NCBI RefSeq assembly: GCF_000214355.1
Contig: NC_015577.1
Coordinates: 1,535,121 to 1,599,120 of the forward strand
Reading direction: 5' to 3'
Length of the DNA stretch: 64,000 bases
Source: Leadbettera azotonutricia ZAS-9
GTDB lineage: Bacteria > Spirochaetota > Spirochaetia > Treponematales > Breznakiellaceae
The notes beneath the pieces were generated by a model that worked only from the letters and a program-made list of their open reading frames with translations, searched no databases and was not told where the DNA came from. Shown one piece after another: positions 3,013-24,217 of this stretch (position 1 is the stretch's first letter; every line of letters starts with the position of its first letter). A program made the translations under genes and the position numbers.

Positions 3013-3483
3013 TCAGGCTTTATTCAGCCTCGTAAGCTCCTTGTCAAAGCTGTCGGCAAAAGCCTTGAGTTCCCTTTTGCCATAGGCGGGGGAGCGTTCC
3101 ATCCCGAGGCCGCTTCGCGCGAGATCCACCATAAAATCCCTTAAGGAACGGAGCTCGCGGATATTTTCGGCAGTGTAAATACGCCCCCTGTCGTCGAGGA
3201 CGCTTATCCCCTTTTCCACAAGCCGTTCCGCAAGGGGTACATCCCGGGTAACAGCGAGATCGCCTGCAGCGGCAAGCTCTACAATGCGGTTGTCGGCAGA
3301 ACCTTCCCCTGGGGGGCAGAGTTCCATTACAGCCAAGGGGCTTGAGTCTCCGTCTGCAAGGGCTATGCCCGGTATCAGGCGGTTCGCGGCGAATATTGCC
3401 TGGATGTTTCTTTTTGCCGATGAACGGAGGATCAGGGCCCTCGCCTGGGCGGGGCAAGAATCCGCGTCCACCAGAATTTTCAT
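3013..3483 (-). CDS. yaiI: YaiI/YqxD family protein (UPF0178, DUF188)
   Basis: A 156-residue protein that starts with KILVDADSCP, the signature of the UPF0178/DUF188 family, and carries the conserved VTRDVPLAERLV block of this PIN-like fold. The Asp residues in VDAD and TRDVPLA are those that would bind metal in a PIN nuclease, but the family has no settled biochemical role. Its ATG overlaps the TGA of the zapA/manA fusion (TGATG), so it is the last gene of the infC operon and is translationally coupled to the fusion. Confidence 0.88.
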   Translation of the reverse strand: MKILVDADSCPAQARALILRSSAKRNIQAIFAANRLIPGIALADGDSSPLAVMELCPPGEGSADNRIVELAAAGDLAVTRDVPLAERLVEKGISVLDDRGRIYTAENIRELRSLRDFMVDLARSGLGMERSPAYGKRELKAFADSFDKELTRLNKA

Positions 3484-5135
3484 CAGCCTTCTCCGGGTTC
3501 TTCTTTTTCGCCGATGCCCGCCGCGTAAGCTGTGTAATTGCCCGAGAAGCTCAGGCCCCGGAGGGCGGAACTTGCGGGTATAAAGGCGGATTCGCCCTTG
3601 TTTAAAATGACAGTATTACGCTTAACGTTGTCCGCAATATGAAGCTCACCGTCAGTAACAATGATAATTGACGGGCCTTTTTCATTATAGGTAATTTCAC
3701 TGTTGGCGCTATTGCTGTTTTTGTAACAGCCAAGGGCAAATTCCCTTGCCGGGGTGGGGAACCTAAAAAAAGCCGGGGTATTGCCGGCATCGGTTCCGGC
3801 AGGTTTAAGAATCACGGGCTTAAAGGGGGAGAATTTAAGGACCCTGAAAAGTTCCTTGATGTCGATGTGCTTGGGCGTGAGCCCCCCCCGGAGCACGTTG
3901 TCCGAATTCGCCATGAGTTCTACCCCCAGGCCGTAAATATAGGCATGGAGGACGCCCGCAGGCAGGTAAACAGCCTCGCCTGGCTTGAGATCTATGAGGT
4001 TCAGGTAGAGGGGGGCTATTACCGCCGGATCATTGGGGTAAAGCTCGGCAAACCATGAAATAAATTTCCATTCATCAGCATATTCCGGGTATTCCTGATC
4101 CAGTTTCTGGCTCTTTGCATAGGCACTCAGTTCCTGTCTGGTTCCGGGGCCCATGTCAAAAAGGCTCGAGAGAAAGCTCTTGAGGGGGTTCTCCCCGTCC
4201 ATGGCTATCAGCGATGCAATAAGGGAATTGAGCCCTGTTTTTAGGCTTTGAGGGGCGCCCCTAGAAAAAATATCCAAAAGTTTTTTGATTTCGTCGCTGC
4301 TCCTGAAGCCGCACATGGCGGTAAAGGGGGTCAGGGCACAGATGATCTCGGGCTTGTGGTTGGGATCTTTATAATTGCGGTTCGGCGCCTTGAGATCGAT
4401 GCCTTCAAAGTTTTCCCTGTCAAAGCCGTCTTTGGCCTGATCCATGTTGGGGTGGACCTGTATGGAAAGGGGTTTCCCTGCTGCGAGAATTTTAAAGAGG
4501 AAGGGGAGGGCTCCGAAATCTTTTGCCCCTTCTTCCCCGAGAGTATTGACAGGATCGCCGGAAATAATTTGAGAGAGCAGGGGGGAAGCTGCCTCCTGAT
4601 CCCCGTCAGCAATACAGGACGGCCCCTCGGGGTGCACACCCATCCAGAGTTCAGCCCAGGGCGCACGGGAGATATTCCGCTGCCCCAAAAGTTCCGGTAT
4701 CCATTTGGGCGAACCCCATTCATAATATTTTACCGCGTTTTTCAGTTTGAGGATGCCGGGTCTTGCATTAACAGGGGGGGCGGCAGCCGGCGCTTCATCA
4801 GTTGACGGAACCTCTATAGGTTTATTGACAGCAGTCTGCCCTTCTTCCCCCAGCGCATGATCCAGCCGCGAAATCAGGTTGAGGGCCAGGGTTTCAATCT
4901 CATGGCTTTCAATTTCAAAGGAACTGATATGGCGCGCTTTCTCAGCTTCGTCGCAAAGAAGAAAGCCTGTGAGTATGGCGATTTTTAGGGGGTCTTTAAG
5001 GCCGGTGGATTTCCCGGTAGCTTCAATCGCTTTGGTATAGGTATCAAGAAGCCTGTCAAGATAATCCTGTTCTTCATCCGCAGATATGGAAATGGAGGTT
5101 CCCAGGATTTCGATGCGCAGATCGTTTTTCGGCAT
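3483..5135 (-). CDS. ZapA-like domain fused to class I mannose-6-phosphate isomerase
   Basis: A 550-residue protein with two unrelated parts. Residues 1-95 match the ZapA family: an N-terminal LRIEILGTSISI strand pair, then a helix with a conserved LKIAILTGFLLCDEAEKAR block and a following coiled helix. After a Pro/Ala-rich linker (about 100-125) comes a type I phosphomannose isomerase (about 126-550): zinc ligands in QVHP (226-229), NHKPEI (259-264) and the YLPAGVLHAY region are present, as are CGFR and NSDNVLRGG. Class I isomerases interconvert fructose 6-phosphate and mannose 6-phosphate; ZapA stabilises FtsZ rings. The usual manA length is 300-420 residues, so the isomerase is complete. 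There is no stop or frameshift at the join. It follows a ZapB-like gene by 4 bases. Confidence 0.85.
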   Translation of the reverse strand: MPKNDLRIEILGTSISISADEEQDYLDRLLDTYTKAIEATGKSTGLKDPLKIAILTGFLLCDEAEKARHISSFEIESHEIETLALNLISRLDHALGEEGQTAVNKPIEVPSTDEAPAAAPPVNARPGILKLKNAVKYYEWGSPKWIPELLGQRNISRAPWAELWMGVHPEGPSCIADGDQEAASPLLSQIISGDPVNTLGEEGAKDFGALPFLFKILAAGKPLSIQVHPNMDQAKDGFDRENFEGIDLKAPNRNYKDPNHKPEIICALTPFTAMCGFRSSDEIKKLLDIFSRGAPQSLKTGLNSLIASLIAMDGENPLKSFLSSLFDMGPGTRQELSAYAKSQKLDQEYPEYADEWKFISWFAELYPNDPAVIAPLYLNLIDLKPGEAVYLPAGVLHAYIYGLGVELMANSDNVLRGGLTPKHIDIKELFRVLKFSPFKPVILKPAGTDAGNTPAFFRFPTPAREFALGCYKNSNSANSEITYNEKGPSIIIVTDGELHIADNVKRNTVILNKGESAFIPASSALRGLSFSGNYTAYAAGIGEKEEPGEG

Positions 5136-5139
5136 GGGC

Positions 5140-5652
5140 CTAGAAAATATCCAGCTCCCCGCTGTCTATCTCTGTCTCGTCTTCGTTGTCCTCAAGATCG
5201 TCCGGTTCATCTTCGATGAGTTCGGCAACTGGAGGGGCAGGCGGCTGTGCCGCGGGTTTGGGCTCTGCGGGCTTTGGCACAGGCGGCTTCACCGCAGACT
5301 CTGCGGGGGACTTCACCGGAATTTCTGCTTTAGGCGCAGATTCTGCGGGTTTAGACGCCCCGGATTTTGCCTGGGCAGGAGGCTTTTTTGCTGAACCTTC
5401 GTCCCGGCTTATGGCCGTTTCCACGGCGTCTTCGAACTGGTTGAGCCTGTCGAGGGCGGAAAGGACTCCGTCCTCGATGCGGCTCTGCTCTTCTTTGAAC
5501 TCCTGGATCAGGATCTCAAGCTCGTCAATCCGCTTCTGATAGGAATCCAGCTTCCCCTTGAGGAGGAAATTTTCATCCGTCACCTTTTTGACAATATCAA
5601 TGGCTTTGGTGATCTTGGTTTCAAGCAGCTTGACCTGCTCCAGGGTTACCAT
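5140..5652 (-). CDS. coiled-coil protein, ZapB-like
   Basis: A 170-residue protein. Residues 1-80 form an unbroken heptad-rich coiled coil (LEQVKLLETKITKAIDIV onward), followed by a low-complexity Ala/Pro/Lys tail and an acidic C-terminus ending SGELDIF. The coil pattern and its position directly before a ZapA domain suggest a cell-division factor of the ZapB kind, but sequence identity to ZapB cannot be judged here. Its start codon lies in TAGCATG, right after the rplT stop, which implies translation re-initiation from the ribosomal protein gene. Confidence 0.7.
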   Translation of the reverse strand: MVTLEQVKLLETKITKAIDIVKKVTDENFLLKGKLDSYQKRIDELEILIQEFKEEQSRIEDGVLSALDRLNQFEDAVETAISRDEGSAKKPPAQAKSGASKPAESAPKAEIPVKSPAESAVKPPVPKPAEPKPAAQPPAPPVAELIEDEPDDLEDNEDETEIDSGELDIF

Positions 5653-5653
5653 G

Positions 5654-6013
5654 CTAGGCGTCCAGTGCCGCTTTTGCTTTCGCCACTACGGCCTTGAAAG
5701 CGCCTTTGTCTTCGATGGCCATGTTGGACAGGGCTTTCCGGTTGATTTCGATGCCCGCCTTGTTAAGGCCGTCTACCAACCGGGAGTACGAAAGACCTTC
5801 GTCCCTGCAGGCAGCGTTGATCCTGATGATCCAGATGCGGCGGAAATCGGCCTTCCGGTCGCGGCGATCCCTGTAGGCGTAGAAAAGGCCCTTGGTAACC
5901 GCGTCTTTGGCGACTTTGTAGTTCGAATGCCTGCGGCCCCAATAGCCTTTGGCAAGCTTGAGTATCTTTTTGCGGTGGTTCTTGCGTTTTGAACCGTCAA
6001 CTGCTCGTGACAT
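5654..6013 (-). CDS. rplT: 50S ribosomal protein L20
   Basis: A 119-residue, very basic protein with the whole L20 pattern: a long basic N-terminal arm ([19 protein letters not shown]), [24 protein letters not shown] and the C-terminal [15 protein letters not shown] block. It binds 23S rRNA early in 50S assembly. It is third in the conserved infC-rpmI-rplT order. In E. coli and B. subtilis L20 (or an L20-binding leader) represses this operon; the leader here is short (see the promoter entry), so that control is not demonstrated. Confidence 0.97.
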
Positions 6014-6031: not shown

Positions 6032-6232
6032 TTAGCCGTAGGGCAATAAGTGCTTTCTGATAACCGCTACATTGTCCTTGGACAAAATACCGGCATGGCG
6101 GAGATTCCGCTTCCGTTTGGTGGACTTCTTGGTCAGGATATGGCGCAGGTTCTGTTTCTTGTACTTCACCTTGCCGGTTCCGGTAAAGGAATAGCGCTTG
6201 GCCGCGCTCTTCTTTGTCTTCATCTTGGGCAT
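6032..6232 (-). CDS. rpmI: 50S ribosomal protein L35
   Basis: A 66-residue basic protein with the L35 signature: [20 protein letters not shown] at the start and a C-terminal LPYG, with the [16 protein letters not shown] segment between. Length equals the family norm (64-66). It lies between infC and rplT with 18-base gaps on both sides, the order found across bacteria. Confidence 0.97.
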
Positions 6233-6250: not shown

Positions 6251-6787
6251 TTAGGCCCCCGCCTTGGCGGCGCCTTTTGATTTGGGGCTCAGCACCATGG
6301 ACATGAACCGGCCTTCCATGGCCGGAGGCTTGTCCATGACATATTCCCCCTCGATCCTTGCTAAAACATCCTTGAGGACATCCAAACCAAGCTCGGTATG
6401 GGCAAGCTCCCGGCCCCTGAAACGGACCGTAACCTTGACCTTGTTGCCTTCTGCCAAAAATTCCTTCACATGCTTTGATTTGAAATCAAGATCATGCTCA
6501 TCGATTTTCGGCTGCATGCGGATTTCCTTAAGCTTCAGCAGTTTCTGCTTCTTCTTGGAATCCCGCACTTTCTTTTCATTCTCGAATTTGAACTTGCCGT
6601 AATCCAGTATTTTGACTACCGGGGGGACTGCGGTTGGGGCGACTTCCACCAGATCCAAACCTTGTCCCTTGGCGAGTTCGAGAGCTTCCAGGGTAGACAT
6701 AATGCCCTGCTGTTCCCCCTCATCCCGAATGAGGCGGACTTCACGCACCCGAATCTGTTCATTAATCCGTAAATCCTTTTCCGACAA
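6251..6787 (-). CDS. infC: translation initiation factor IF-3
   Basis: A 178-residue protein with both IF-3 domains: the N-terminal [16 protein letters not shown] block and the C-terminal [18 protein letters not shown] and [12 protein letters not shown] blocks. IF-3 binds the 30S subunit and checks start-codon/initiator-tRNA pairing. The start codon is TTG at 6787-6785, preceded by a strong GAGGAGG four bases away. Non-AUG starts are the rule for infC in many bacteria (AUU in E. coli), where they allow IF-3 to lower its own synthesis; the TTG here may serve the same purpose. First gene of a six-gene operon. Confidence 0.96.
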
Positions 6788-19737: not shown

Positions 19738-20895
19738 ATGAGTCAATTCGACACAGAAACAAGACATTTGAAGCAGCCTGCGGATCATATCCTCATTGCC
19801 AGCATACTGCTCCTCACGGGGCTGGGGCTTGTGACCCTCCATTCGTCTTCCTATGGTTTTGCAGAACGCTTCAAGGGCGATGGCCTGTATTTTTTCTCCC
19901 GCCAGATTGTTCTTGCCGCCGCAGGGTTGGTGCTTTTCTTTATTGCTTCCAATATGAAACTGGATCTCTTGAGAAAGATGATAGGGTTTCTGGTACTGGG
20001 AACAATTCTGCTCTGCATACTTACCTTTATCCCGGGCGTTGGGGTTTCCAAGAACGGCGCTTCCAGGTGGATACACTTTGGTTCTTTTACCTTTCAGCCT
20101 TCGGAATTGGTTAAGCTTGTGCTGCCCCTTTATCTGGCCCATTTATTTGATAAAAAAGGCGACGATATTGACCGGTTCTCCAAGGGCATACTTCCCCCGG
20201 TGATGATGACAACGCTTTTCGTTTTCCTCATTTATCTGCAAAACAATTTTTCTACCGCTATGTTTATTGTGCTTAACGTGCTCATCATTTTTTATTTTGC
20301 AGGGGTCAGGTTCAGGTATTTCTTTTCCGCTATAGTCATTCTTGCTCCAATATCCTTCCTCCTTATTGCTACCAAGGAGCACAGGTTCAGGAGGGTGATG
20401 AGCTTCTTCTTCCCCGAAATGGATCCTTTGGGGGCAGGCTACCAGGTACGGTCTTCGGTACGCTCGGTGAGTTCCGGGGGTTTCTGGGGCAAGGGCCTGG
20501 GCCTGGGGACAAGAAAAATCGCATCGGTCCCTGAAATTCATTCGGACTTTATTTTTTCAGCCTATGCCGAGGAATCGGGGTACCTGGGAATACTGCTTTT
20601 TGCGCTCCTTTTTGCGGTTTTTGCGTTCCGGGGTTATTCTTCGGCTATGGGGAACGAAAAGACTTTTCCAAGGCTTTTGGGCCTGGGACTGGTGACTATG
20701 GTGATTACACAGACCCTGCTTAATATCACGGTAGTGGCTGGATCTTTGCCCGCCACAGGTGTTCCCCTGCCTTTCTTTTCCGCCGGGGGATCTTCGCTCG
20801 CGACAACACTGATCATGGCAGGGTTAATTGTAAATATTTCAAAAACCCGGAATGTTCCTTCTTTTGCGGGAAATACTGCAAGGACGGAGGTGTAA
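19738..20895 (+). CDS. ftsW: FtsW, SEDS-family septal glycan polymerase
   Basis: A 385-residue polytopic protein of the SEDS family: NGASRWIHFGSFTFQPSE, QNNFSTAM, the large extracytoplasmic loop with GAGYQVRSSVRSVSSGGFWG, HSDFIFSAYAEESG and TGVPLPFFSAGGSS. FtsW polymerises lipid II at the septum together with a class B penicillin-binding protein; no such protein gene is encoded in this window. The gene begins 10 bases after mraY, with a weak AGGAA site. Confidence 0.96.
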   Translation: MSQFDTETRHLKQPADHILIASILLLTGLGLVTLHSSSYGFAERFKGDGLYFFSRQIVLAAAGLVLFFIASNMKLDLLRKMIGFLVLGTILLCILTFIPGVGVSKNGASRWIHFGSFTFQPSELVKLVLPLYLAHLFDKKGDDIDRFSKGILPPVMMTTLFVFLIYLQNNFSTAMFIVLNVLIIFYFAGVRFRYFFSAIVILAPISFLLIATKEHRFRRVMSFFFPEMDPLGAGYQVRSSVRSVSSGGFWGKGLGLGTRKIASVPEIHSDFIFSAYAEESGYLGILLFALLFAVFAFRGYSSAMGNEKTFPRLLGLGLVTMVITQTLLNITVVAGSLPATGVPLPFFSAGGSSLATTLIMAGLIVNISKTRNVPSFAGNTARTEV

Positions 20896-20896
20896 A

Positions 20897-21715
20897 ATGG
20901 CAGGGGAATATATGTACACTGAAGAGGCGGCAGCCCAGGCAGCGCCTTCCCGGCTTGAGAAGGGCCTAAAATGGTTCATACTCGCTGCCTGCATTGCGGT
21001 AGGCGCGGAACTGGTTTGGCTTTTGGGGATTACGCCCTTTATGCCTTTCTCCAAGGTCAATGTAAGCGCAGCGGAGGGCCTCAGCAGGGAAAGCCTTCTC
21101 GCTTATGCCGGTGTAAGCAGTCAGTCGTCGTTTATCTCGTTAAATGCGCGGACATCTGAAAAAGCCCTCAGGGCCCTGCCGCAGATAGAAAGCGCGTTTG
21201 TGTTCAAGCATTTCCCTGACAAGCTCGAAATAGTCCTCAAAGGCCGCGAGGCCGCAGCCGTTGCCTTTGCAAGCCTTAAGGGAAAGATGGTTCCGGTGTT
21301 TTTCGATTCCCATGGGATAATTTTCAGAATTGGCCATGAAGGAAAAGCGGATGCTTCCGCTGAACTGCCTGTGATCTCGGGCCTCGTGATAGAAGAGCCT
21401 TATCCGGGTATGAGGCTTCCTGCCATGTTCAATTCTTTGTTCCAGCAATTGGATACCCTGCGCATCAAGACGCCTGAACTTTTGGCTGCTGTTTCTGAAA
21501 TAAAAATCAACCGCAAGTCCTTTGACGGTTTTGATTTAATACTCTATCCTATACATAAACAGATAAGGGTTCGCCTTTCGGAATTGAACCAGGATCTGCT
21601 CCGCTACACCCTCCTCATGGCGGATGTGTTGGCAGCAAGGGAACCTGGGATTAATTTTATTGATTTTCGCTCGGGAATGGCGTCATATACCTTAAAGGAG
21701 GCTTCCTCTGAGTAA
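20897..21715 (+). CDS. ftsQ: FtsQ/DivIB division protein
   Basis: A 272-residue bitopic protein with ATG 20897 just after the ftsW stop and an ACGGAGG site. A membrane helix lies at about residues 28-48, then a POTRA-like domain (FSKVNVSAAEGLSRESLLAYAGV), LPQIESAFVFKHFPDKLEIVL and a beta domain. These match the FtsQ/DivIB shape; position between ftsW and ftsA supports it. Its 3' end contains the ribosome site for ftsA. Confidence 0.88.
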   Translation: MAGEYMYTEEAAAQAAPSRLEKGLKWFILAACIAVGAELVWLLGITPFMPFSKVNVSAAEGLSRESLLAYAGVSSQSSFISLNARTSEKALRALPQIESAFVFKHFPDKLEIVLKGREAAAVAFASLKGKMVPVFFDSHGIIFRIGHEGKADASAELPVISGLVIEEPYPGMRLPAMFNSLFQQLDTLRIKTPELLAAVSEIKINRKSFDGFDLILYPIHKQIRVRLSELNQDLLRYTLLMADVLAAREPGINFIDFRSGMASYTLKEASSE

Positions 21716-22961
21716 CGAAGACGTGATAGTCGGCCTGGACATAGGCACGACAAAAGTCTGCGCCGTAATTGGCGAGCGCAATGAAGAAACCGGAAAACTC
21801 GAAATAACCGGCGTCGGCGTTGCGCCTTCAACAGGGTTGAAAAAAGGCGTGGTGGTCAATATCGAAGCCACCCTCAAATCGATTTCATCTGCTGTCGAGG
21901 CTGCTGAAATGATGAGCGGCCGCGAGGTGAAATCCTGCTGGGCCGGCATAGGCGGAAGCCATATAGACGGCGTCAATTCCCGGGGCGTTGTGGCAGTTAC
22001 AGGCCGCAACCGCGAGACCAGGGAAATTGGCAAAGAAGACGTGGACAGGGTTCTGGAAGCTGCCAGGGCTGTGGTAATCCCCATGGACAGGCAAATACTC
22101 GAAGTGATACCCCAAAATTATATTGTAGATGATCAGAAGGGCATAAAAGATCCCCTGGATATGATAGGCGTACGCCTTGAAGCCGAAGTGCATATTATCA
22201 CCTGTTCTGTTACAGGGGGCCAAAATCTCATTAAGTGCGTTAACCGTGCTGGATTCAAGGTTAACGGGCTTTTGCTCCAGTCCCTTGCGGCAGGGCATGC
22301 AGTCCTTTCGGAAGAAGAAAAAGATTTGGGCGTAGCCCTCATAGATCTTGGAGGGGGTACTACCGATGTATTGGTTTACCTTGACGGTGCTCCCTATTCC
22401 AGCATTACTATTCCTGCCGGGGGCGCCCAGGTTTCGAGCGACATCTCCATACTGAAAAAGATTCCTTTTGATTATGCTGAAAAAATCAAAACCGAAGTGG
22501 GCTGCTGCTGGGCTCCTTTCCTTGAAGAAAACGGCGACATACTTATTCCCGGTGTCGGGGGCCGCCCACCCCAGCCTATACCCAGGATGGATATACTGGA
22601 AGTGATACAGCCCAGAATGGAAGAGATTTTCAAAATGGTAAAAGAAAAGCTCGGCAAGCTTCCCCTGAACAGGCCCCTGGGCGCAGGGATAGTGATTACC
22701 GGGGGAGGCGCCGAACTTTTAGGCGCGGCTGAATTAGCATCTCATATATTCCGCCTTCCTGTGCGGGTGGGCAAGCCCAGGCTTTCGGGAGGGCTTGTTG
22801 AAGAATGCCGGAGCCCTGCGTTTTCCACTGTTGTGGGCCTTGTTCTTGAAGGGTTTGACCGTGAAGGCGTTACTGTTTCGGGACCTGAAAGCCATCCCCG
22901 CGAAAAAAGCGAACCGGTGGTAGGAAAATTGATCGATTGGCTGAAAAGGGAATTTTTTTAA
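21708..22961 (+). CDS. ftsA: FtsA, actin-like membrane tether of FtsZ
   Basis: About 417 residues. The first standard start in frame is GTG at 21723, but it lies 21 bases from the only ribosome site (AGGAGG, 21696-21701). A CTG at 21708 is six bases from that site and adds residues reading SNED before VIVGLDIGTTKVC, which is why 21708 is used here. Motifs: GLDIGTTKVCAVIG and LIDLGGGTTDV (ATP binding), ITGGGAELLG, and a C-terminal amphipathic helix (KLIDWLKREFF) that anchors FtsA to the membrane. It overlaps the ftsQ stop by 8 bases. Confidence 0.93.
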   Translation: MSNEDVIVGLDIGTTKVCAVIGERNEETGKLEITGVGVAPSTGLKKGVVVNIEATLKSISSAVEAAEMMSGREVKSCWAGIGGSHIDGVNSRGVVAVTGRNRETREIGKEDVDRVLEAARAVVIPMDRQILEVIPQNYIVDDQKGIKDPLDMIGVRLEAEVHIITCSVTGGQNLIKCVNRAGFKVNGLLLQSLAAGHAVLSEEEKDLGVALIDLGGGTTDVLVYLDGAPYSSITIPAGGAQVSSDISILKKIPFDYAEKIKTEVGCCWAPFLEENGDILIPGVGGRPPQPIPRMDILEVIQPRMEEIFKMVKEKLGKLPLNRPLGAGIVITGGGAELLGAAELASHIFRLPVRVGKPRLSGGLVEECRSPAFSTVVGLVLEGFDREGVTVSGPESHPREKSEPVVGKLIDWLKREFF

Positions 22962-23008
22962 AACCCCAGGGAGGGGCAAAAACAAATAAAGTGATTTGGG
23001 AGGGGATG

Positions 23009-24217
23009 ATGAACGTTGAAGTACTCGAAGAAATGGAAGCCCAGCAAAGGTTGGACGAACAGCCGGTAAAAATTGTAGTGGTGGGCACAGGCGGCGGCGG
23101 CGGAAATGCGATAAACGGCATGATACGCCGGGGCATTAAGGGTGTTAAGTTCATTGCTGTCAATACTGATAGCAGGGATCTTGTCAAGAACAGAGCGGAC
23201 GTCAAACTCCAGATAGGCGCCAAGCTTACTTCGGGCAGGGGTGCGGGCGGAAAGCCTGAAATTGGGGAAAGAGCAGCCATCGAAAGCGAAGCCGAGATCC
23301 GCGACGTTTTTAAAGACGCCAATATGGTGTTTGTTACTGCGGGAATGGGCGGCGGTACCGGTACCGGTTCTGCCCCGGTTATTGCCCGCATCGCCAAAGG
23401 TCTGGGTGCCCTTACCGTTGGCGTAGTTACCAAACCTTTTGATTTTGAATTCGAGCACCGTATGAACCATGCAGAAGAGGGGATACTCAAACTCAGGGAA
23501 GCGGTGGATTCCCTCATTGTAATACCCAATCAAAGGCTATTGAATAATACTGACAGGGGCATTTCGATTCTCGACGCCTTTGCTACAGCTGACAATGTGC
23601 TTTTCCAGGGTGTGCAGGGTATTTCTGATATCATCATCGAAACCGGGATTATCAATATAGACTTTGCAGATGTAGAGGCGGTAATGAAAAATCAGGGCGA
23701 CGCCCTTATGTCCATTGGGTACGGCGCGGGGGAGAACCGCGTTATGGACGCAATTTCGAGCGCCATGGACAATCCCCTTCTTGAAGAGACCCAGATTAAA
23801 GGTGCCAAGAAAATGCTCGTCAATGTCGCCGGAAACAGGAATCTTTCCATGGTGGAGTACAACGAAATAATTGGGCATATCACCAAAGATATTGATCCAA
23901 AAGCCGAAGTTTTTACCGGCCTTTATATCGATGACTCGATGGAAGACAGGATCAGGGTTACGGTTATTGCTGCAGGTTTTGGAAAATCATCTGATAAACC
24001 CGAGGCAGCAGTGTCCGAGATGGATAATGAACCCAAGGGGGAAACTGTAAGCCCGGAAGAATATGAAAGGTTTAGCGGCCAGGGCTCTGTTGAACCCAGC
24101 ATACCATATCGCGGCGTCGGGGTCCTTCCTTATAGGGATTCGAAGTACGCAGATGACGACCTTGATATTCCCCCTATCATCCGCTATCACGATTTTACCA
24201 AGACAGCGGCAAATTAA
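23009..24217 (+). CDS. ftsZ: FtsZ, tubulin-like division GTPase
   Basis: About 402 residues. ATG 23009 is favoured over ATG 23006 because GGGAGG then has a five-base gap. The GTPase motifs are VGTGGGGGNAINGM, the tubulin signature AGMGGGTGTGSAPVIA, and the NADFAD-type synergy loop written here as NIDFADVEAVM. A variable linker leads to the C-terminal DIPPIIRYHDF, which fits the conserved peptide that binds FtsA. Forms the Z ring. Four to five genes later the run turns to DNA processing. Confidence 0.97.
   Translation: MNVEVLEEMEAQQRLDEQPVKIVVVGTGGGGGNAINGMIRRGIKGVKFIAVNTDSRDLVKNRADVKLQIGAKLTSGRGAGGKPEIGERAAIESEAEIRDVFKDANMVFVTAGMGGGTGTGSAPVIARIAKGLGALTVGVVTKPFDFEFEHRMNHAEEGILKLREAVDSLIVIPNQRLLNNTDRGISILDAFATADNVLFQGVQGISDIIIETGIINIDFADVEAVMKNQGDALMSIGYGAGENRVMDAISSAMDNPLLEETQIKGAKKMLVNVAGNRNLSMVEYNEIIGHITKDIDPKAEVFTGLYIDDSMEDRIRVTVIAAGFGKSSDKPEAAVSEMDNEPKGETVSPEEYERFSGQGSVEPSIPYRGVGVLPYRDSKYADDDLDIPPIIRYHDFTKTAAN

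Follow-up and report, generated by a model that had tools for sequence, protein, structure and literature searches.

A ZapA–mannose-6-phosphate isomerase fusion in Leadbettera azotonutricia and its recurrence within one spirochaete family

Introduction

A single reading frame in the 64,000-nucleotide stretch of the Leadbettera azotonutricia ZAS-9 genome analysed here (the window) joins the cell division protein ZapA to class I mannose-6-phosphate isomerase, ManA. The locus raises three questions: whether the two proteins are really made as one, how such a gene could have come about, and whether its existence means that sugar phosphate metabolism and Z-ring assembly are coupled, as a preliminary description of the sequence had proposed. 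The features of the locus are collected in Table 1.

Table 1. Features of the zapA-manA fusion locus (positions are those of the window)
Feature	Position	Strand	Basis
ZapA-ManA fusion gene	3483..5135	minus	550 aa, single frame, ATG to TGA
ZapA domain, residues 1-95	4851..5135	minus	PF05164, model, PDB fold matches
Interdomain linker, residues 96-127, Pro/Ala/Glu-rich	4755..4850	minus	pLDDT and codon scan
Class I mannose-6-phosphate isomerase domain, residues 128-550	3486..4754	minus	PF20511, TIGR00218, fold match
ZapB-like coiled-coil gene	5140..5652	minus	PF06005, E 7.5e-9
rplT	6013..5654	minus	name from reading translation
rpmI	6232..6032	minus	name from reading translation
infC	6787..6251	minus	name from reading translation
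YaiI/YqxD-family (DUF188) gene	3013..3483	minus	PF02639, E 1e-26

Results and Discussion

The fusion gene

The coordinates and the single 550-residue frame given in the preliminary description are correct; the gene is read from 5135 to 3483, and the frame contains no internal stop. ZapA-ManA is a genuine fusion, one protein with two domains. The combination goes beyond chance, since both halves exceed curated cut-offs and Pfam matches are present across the expected rows of alignment A2: ZapA in all 32 ZapA-bearing rows, fused and separate, and PMI in all 31 PMI-bearing rows.

From residue 2 to residue 149 a codon scan found no in-frame ATG, GTG or TTG, which leaves the fusion as the only form in which this gene can yield full ManA. 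Any separate ManA would miss its first twenty or more residues, and a free enzyme translated from an internal start was rejected for the window locus. The genome is a single contig of 3,855,671 bases, 99.99% complete, which encodes a single ZapA and a single type I PMI; a second copy of either was thus rejected as well. No description of a ZapA-ManA fusion, or of a spirochaete ZapA, came up in the open-access literature. The domain fusion is real, its evolutionary origin is clear, and it has apparently not been described before.

The ZapA half

The first 95 residues had been assigned to ZapA. Indeed, PF05164 matches residues 7-74 with 31.6 bits against a gathering cut-off of 23.8, and the domain extends to about residue 95. 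AlphaFold models residues 1-95 as beta-beta-alpha-alpha followed by a third helix of low confidence. The preliminary description had allowed that the N-terminal domain might turn out to lack a ZapA fold. The best nine PDB fold matches returned by Foldseek for the ZapA model are all ZapA proteins, from Geobacillus, Klebsiella, E. coli and Pseudomonas (probability 0.77-1.00, TM about 0.46-0.59, E values only about 0.01 and none below 0.001), which supports a ZapA fold for the modelled domain. Profile comparison to solved ZapA sequences is weak, with E 0.026 at best. As helix 3 and the linker are modelled with low confidence, tetramerisation of the ZapA half is a prediction only.

Two positions that touch FtsZ in the complex solved for K. 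pneumoniae (PMC12216130) are conserved: Gly12 never varies, and Ser14 hardly does. Read by eye, the Asn60 contact of Gram-negative ZapA with FtsZ is not evident in the ZapA half; nor is an equivalent of the Phe2 hook evident in FtsZ, whose start codon in the window is uncertain. The gene for this FtsZ, whose identity TIGR00065 confirms, occupies approximately 22937..24217 of the window. It belongs to a run of division genes at 19738-24217, about 18 kb from the fusion, which were named from their translations as FtsW-like, FtsQ-like, FtsA and FtsZ.

The divergence of this half from solved ZapA, together with the lack of an evident Asn60 contact, could be taken to mean that it has lost FtsZ binding and merely oligomerises ManA. 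We regard such a loss as very unlikely: this is the sole ZapA of the genome, it retains both Gly12 and Ser14, its gene adjoins zapB, and it is constrained like unfused ZapA.

The linker and the ManA half

The Pro/Ala linker noted earlier is present, and it forms a low-confidence stretch at about 97-125 in the AlphaFold model, with pLDDT below 50 at 97-115. What follows it had been called a complete class I ManA, and the searches agree: the domain runs from residue 128 to about 540, NCBIfam TIGR00218 (manA) matches residues 128-522 with 254 bits against a cut-off of 116, and Pfam PMI_typeI_cat matches residues 128-278 (E 1e-32). PF01238, a 48-position model, gave no match; PF20511 is the informative one. 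The modelled half matches the fold of Salmonella PMI 3h1w with E 1e-41 and TM 0.92 on the target, so that the AlphaFold modelling of both halves suggested in the preliminary description yielded a ZapA fold and a ManA fold.

Residues Q226, H228, E263 and H397 (zinc ligands), K261 and R416 are identical in 133 of 133 zapA-linked ManAs, fused or separate. Their roles in zinc binding and, for K261 and R416, in catalysis are those known for the Salmonella enzyme, several mutants of which are among the fold matches. Both halves of the fused pairs are under purifying selection similar to that on separate pairs (dN/dS 0.13-0.28 where computable, with dS high in several). Judged by sequence, both halves look functional, and we infer isomerase activity and FtsZ binding as predicted properties of the protein.

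Neighbouring genes

The ZapB-like gene (read from 5652 to 5140) ends 4 nt before the ATG of the fusion, as the preliminary description had it, and its PF06005 score of 36.4 bits is above the gathering cut-off of 31.5. Coiled-coil families match loosely, so that this score is no more than suggestive of ZapB identity. A gene of this kind adjoins zapA in nearly all linked loci.

Further upstream and in the same direction lie rplT, rpmI and infC. Consensus scanning placed a promoter-like site ahead of infC, at 6892-6863; from rplT to the beginning of the fusion gene it detected nothing like a terminator on the minus strand. With one promoter-like site ahead of infC, the infC-rpmI-rplT-zapB-fusion genes are likely to form a single transcription unit. 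At the other end, the stop codon of the fusion and the ATG of the YaiI-family gene share one base (minus-strand TGATG, window 3481-3485), suggesting translational coupling of these two genes.

Distribution of the fusion

Our sample comprised 150 ManA loci of the order, 138 of them in the window's family. Of these 138 loci, 127 have zapA immediately before manA, as a separate gene in 109 and fused in 18. The remaining 11 lack a zapA nearby, in some cases because the contig ends. The zapB-zapA-manA cluster is therefore conserved in the window's family, across about 45 genera. The 18 fused loci come from 12 genera, all within this family.

The preliminary description had proposed searching spirochaete genomes for the same fusion, and 17 other genomes do carry this architecture. 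The same source had named a frameshift or base error as the finding that would split the protein back into two genes. A small change can join such neighbours, and an error of this kind could lie behind some fusions met in a single MAG, such as G293. At the window locus, an artefact of sequencing or assembly was rejected and its probability is negligible, since the fusion is found in other genera and is common to six related genomes of four genera. In addition, candidate starts at the junction are gone in 12 of the 18 fused loci, the window's included.

Among the matches listed for a phylum-wide sample of 393 genomes there is no full-length fusion outside the window's family; rarer fusions may lie beyond the matches listed. 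Scanning the named genome contigs with the window protein gave four distant ManA loci, all unfused. In f5, another family of the order (L142 and L150), manA lies just 3' of a DinG-like helicase gene, the end of which overlaps the manA open frame in one of the two loci. The N-terminal ManA extensions seen there were rejected as fusions, being open frame that overlaps the helicase gene. Six members of the sister family f3 have separate adjacent genes. These loci (L089, L112, L114, L129, L140 and L147) carry zapB, zapA and manA next to each other and group inside the tree of the window's family near g4/g6, a placement that may reflect either horizontal transfer or a shared ancestral cluster.

Repeated changes between fused and separate states

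The tree of ZapB, ZapA and ManA calls for 7 changes between the fused and the separate state, no fewer than 5 of them forced by starred branches, and the 60-row mixture-model tree likewise needs 7 changes. A single fused clade, and with it one origin of the fusion, was rejected (AU p 2e-7). The fused and separate states have thus been exchanged at least 5 and probably 7 times, counts that do not separate fusion from fission. All six genomes of the window's own clade, which spans four genera, have the fused form; identity to the window protein is 47-64%.

How easily could such genes join? Where zapA and manA are separate, a gap of -4 to +3 nt is frequent. In 20 of the 109 separate pairs, roughly one in five (e.g., L005, L006, L019, L023, L027 and L029), the two genes already share a frame. 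Some of these pairs are divided by little beyond a stop codon and represent states one step away from fusion. The fused G293 and its separate sister G341 differ by a one-base gap and altered bases at the former stop and start; the G293 fusion is recent, and as the genome is a draft, an error could be involved. Linkers of the fused forms range from 7 to about 60 residues and have no conserved sequence.

Tight packing, the G293–G341 comparison and the unconserved linkers all fit a neutral course of events, in which overlapping co-translated genes join by loss of a stop or a small frame change, the protein termini tolerate the joining, and no functional effect follows, possibly with the halves separated again by proteolysis. 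This is a serious rival and a real possibility, which we nevertheless hold to be somewhat improbable as the full account. The control pair zapB-zapA is packed as tightly and is fused in 0 of 131 loci, and the fused state has been kept through a clade of four genera in spite of the divergence within it.

The most probable account

We consider it probable that the window encodes a two-domain protein in which both halves do their ordinary jobs and which arose by the joining of neighbouring genes. The basis of this account, as far as it can be read from the DNA, is the single frame, both predicted folds, intact catalytic residues, sole copies, the lack of an internal start and the recurrence of the fusion. 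The ZapA half would oligomerise and bind FtsZ, and the ManA half would interconvert fructose 6-phosphate and mannose 6-phosphate. Loss of the stop and start between adjacent co-translated genes of the zapB-zapA-manA cluster would have produced the fusion several times in the family.

Mechanically the arrangement is plausible, as ZapA tolerates C-terminal additions well and ZapA-GFP is in wide use. On FtsZ, ZapA assembles into dimers and tetramers (PMC12216130, PMC12754632), so ManA would be carried there at a fixed stoichiometry, all class I ManA of the cell sitting on ZapA oligomers in a 1:1 ratio. Since ManA is made only as a fusion with ZapA, we expect it to be found during part of the cell cycle at the Z ring or close to it. 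This account predicts an active enzyme, binding to FtsZ, localisation to the septum and an uncleaved chain; the linker could be cleaved. Neither regulation of division by ManA activity nor selection for the fusion is claimed.

Is sugar phosphate metabolism coupled to division?

Both neutral joining and selection for metabolic coupling accept the anatomy given above and differ on its meaning. According to the latter, the fusion and the operon exist so that fructose-6-P/mannose-6-P flux, placed or sensed at the Z ring, tunes division to nutrients or feeds septal envelope synthesis, much as UgtP does with UDP-glucose. The zapB-zapA-manA linkage is long-lived, and it is the same pair in the same order that has been fused repeatedly, as opposed to zapB-zapA. 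Precedents exist in UgtP for division and in ManA for wall, shape and chromosome segregation. A weak match to the guanylyltransferase part of bifunctional GMP_PMI, below the family cut-off, hints faintly that ManA may feed GDP-mannose. We nonetheless judge selected coupling to be unlikely. With 109 of the 127 linked loci keeping two separate genes, physical fusion is dispensable, manA sits at another place in several members of the family, and the tolerance of ZapA for C-terminal additions can explain recurrence without selection. The conserved operon speaks for some benefit of co-expression; the separate majority speaks against a need for fusion.

The preliminary description was right about the fusion, about both domains and about the neighbouring ZapB-like gene, and the proposed link between sugar phosphate flux and the Z ring stays a conjecture. 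It is a testable hypothesis, made a little more plausible by the linkage and the at least 5 changes of state and weakened by the prevalence of separate genes. The statement that ZapA and ManA have no reported link needs correction: manA mutants of B. subtilis have defects in cell wall, shape and chromosome segregation (PMC2940726, reviewed in PMC8270655), an effect that does not run via ZapA or FtsZ.

We may also speculate, at rather long odds, that a spirochaete lineage has wired sugar phosphate isomerisation to the Z ring. ManA activity or the level of mannose/fructose-6-P would then determine, through the ZapA-borne enzyme, when or where the cell divides or makes its septal envelope, and repeated fusion would be the signature of selection.

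Whatever its meaning, the locus links the long-open question of how nutrient state relates to bacterial division to a natural test set: close relatives that have zapA and manA fused or separate in the same operon. Comparison of fused and separate species would give a direct view of whether septal placement of an enzyme matters. It also illustrates that co-translated neighbours can become a protein fusion several times within one family.

Comparison with known systems

The N-terminal half resembles known ZapA (PF05164; E. coli, K. pneumoniae, P. aeruginosa, Geobacillus/B. subtilis) in the family match over the cut-off, the beta-beta-alpha-alpha order, Gly12/Ser14 and the ZapB-like neighbour. 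It differs in being joined by a linker to an enzyme, in showing no evident Asn60 contact and in a last helix interrupted by a variable stretch. The C-terminal half resembles Salmonella PMI (3h1m/2wfp; TIGR00218) over the whole domain, including the zinc ligands and the catalytic Lys and Arg, at 36-37% identity, and differs from it by the N-terminal ZapA domain and by having no start codon of its own. Its identity to the solved B. subtilis PMI (1qwr) is just 17%.

B. subtilis ManA catalyses the same reaction, and its loss disturbs wall, shape and chromosome segregation (PMC2940726); unlike the window protein, it is unfused and has no tie to ZapA. Another metabolic enzyme of B. subtilis, the UDP-glucose-linked UgtP, acts on FtsZ (PMC8270655). 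UgtP itself is an unfused glucosyltransferase that inhibits FtsZ. The two would be alike if localisation of the fusion affects division, that is, if sugar metabolism is placed at the Z ring.
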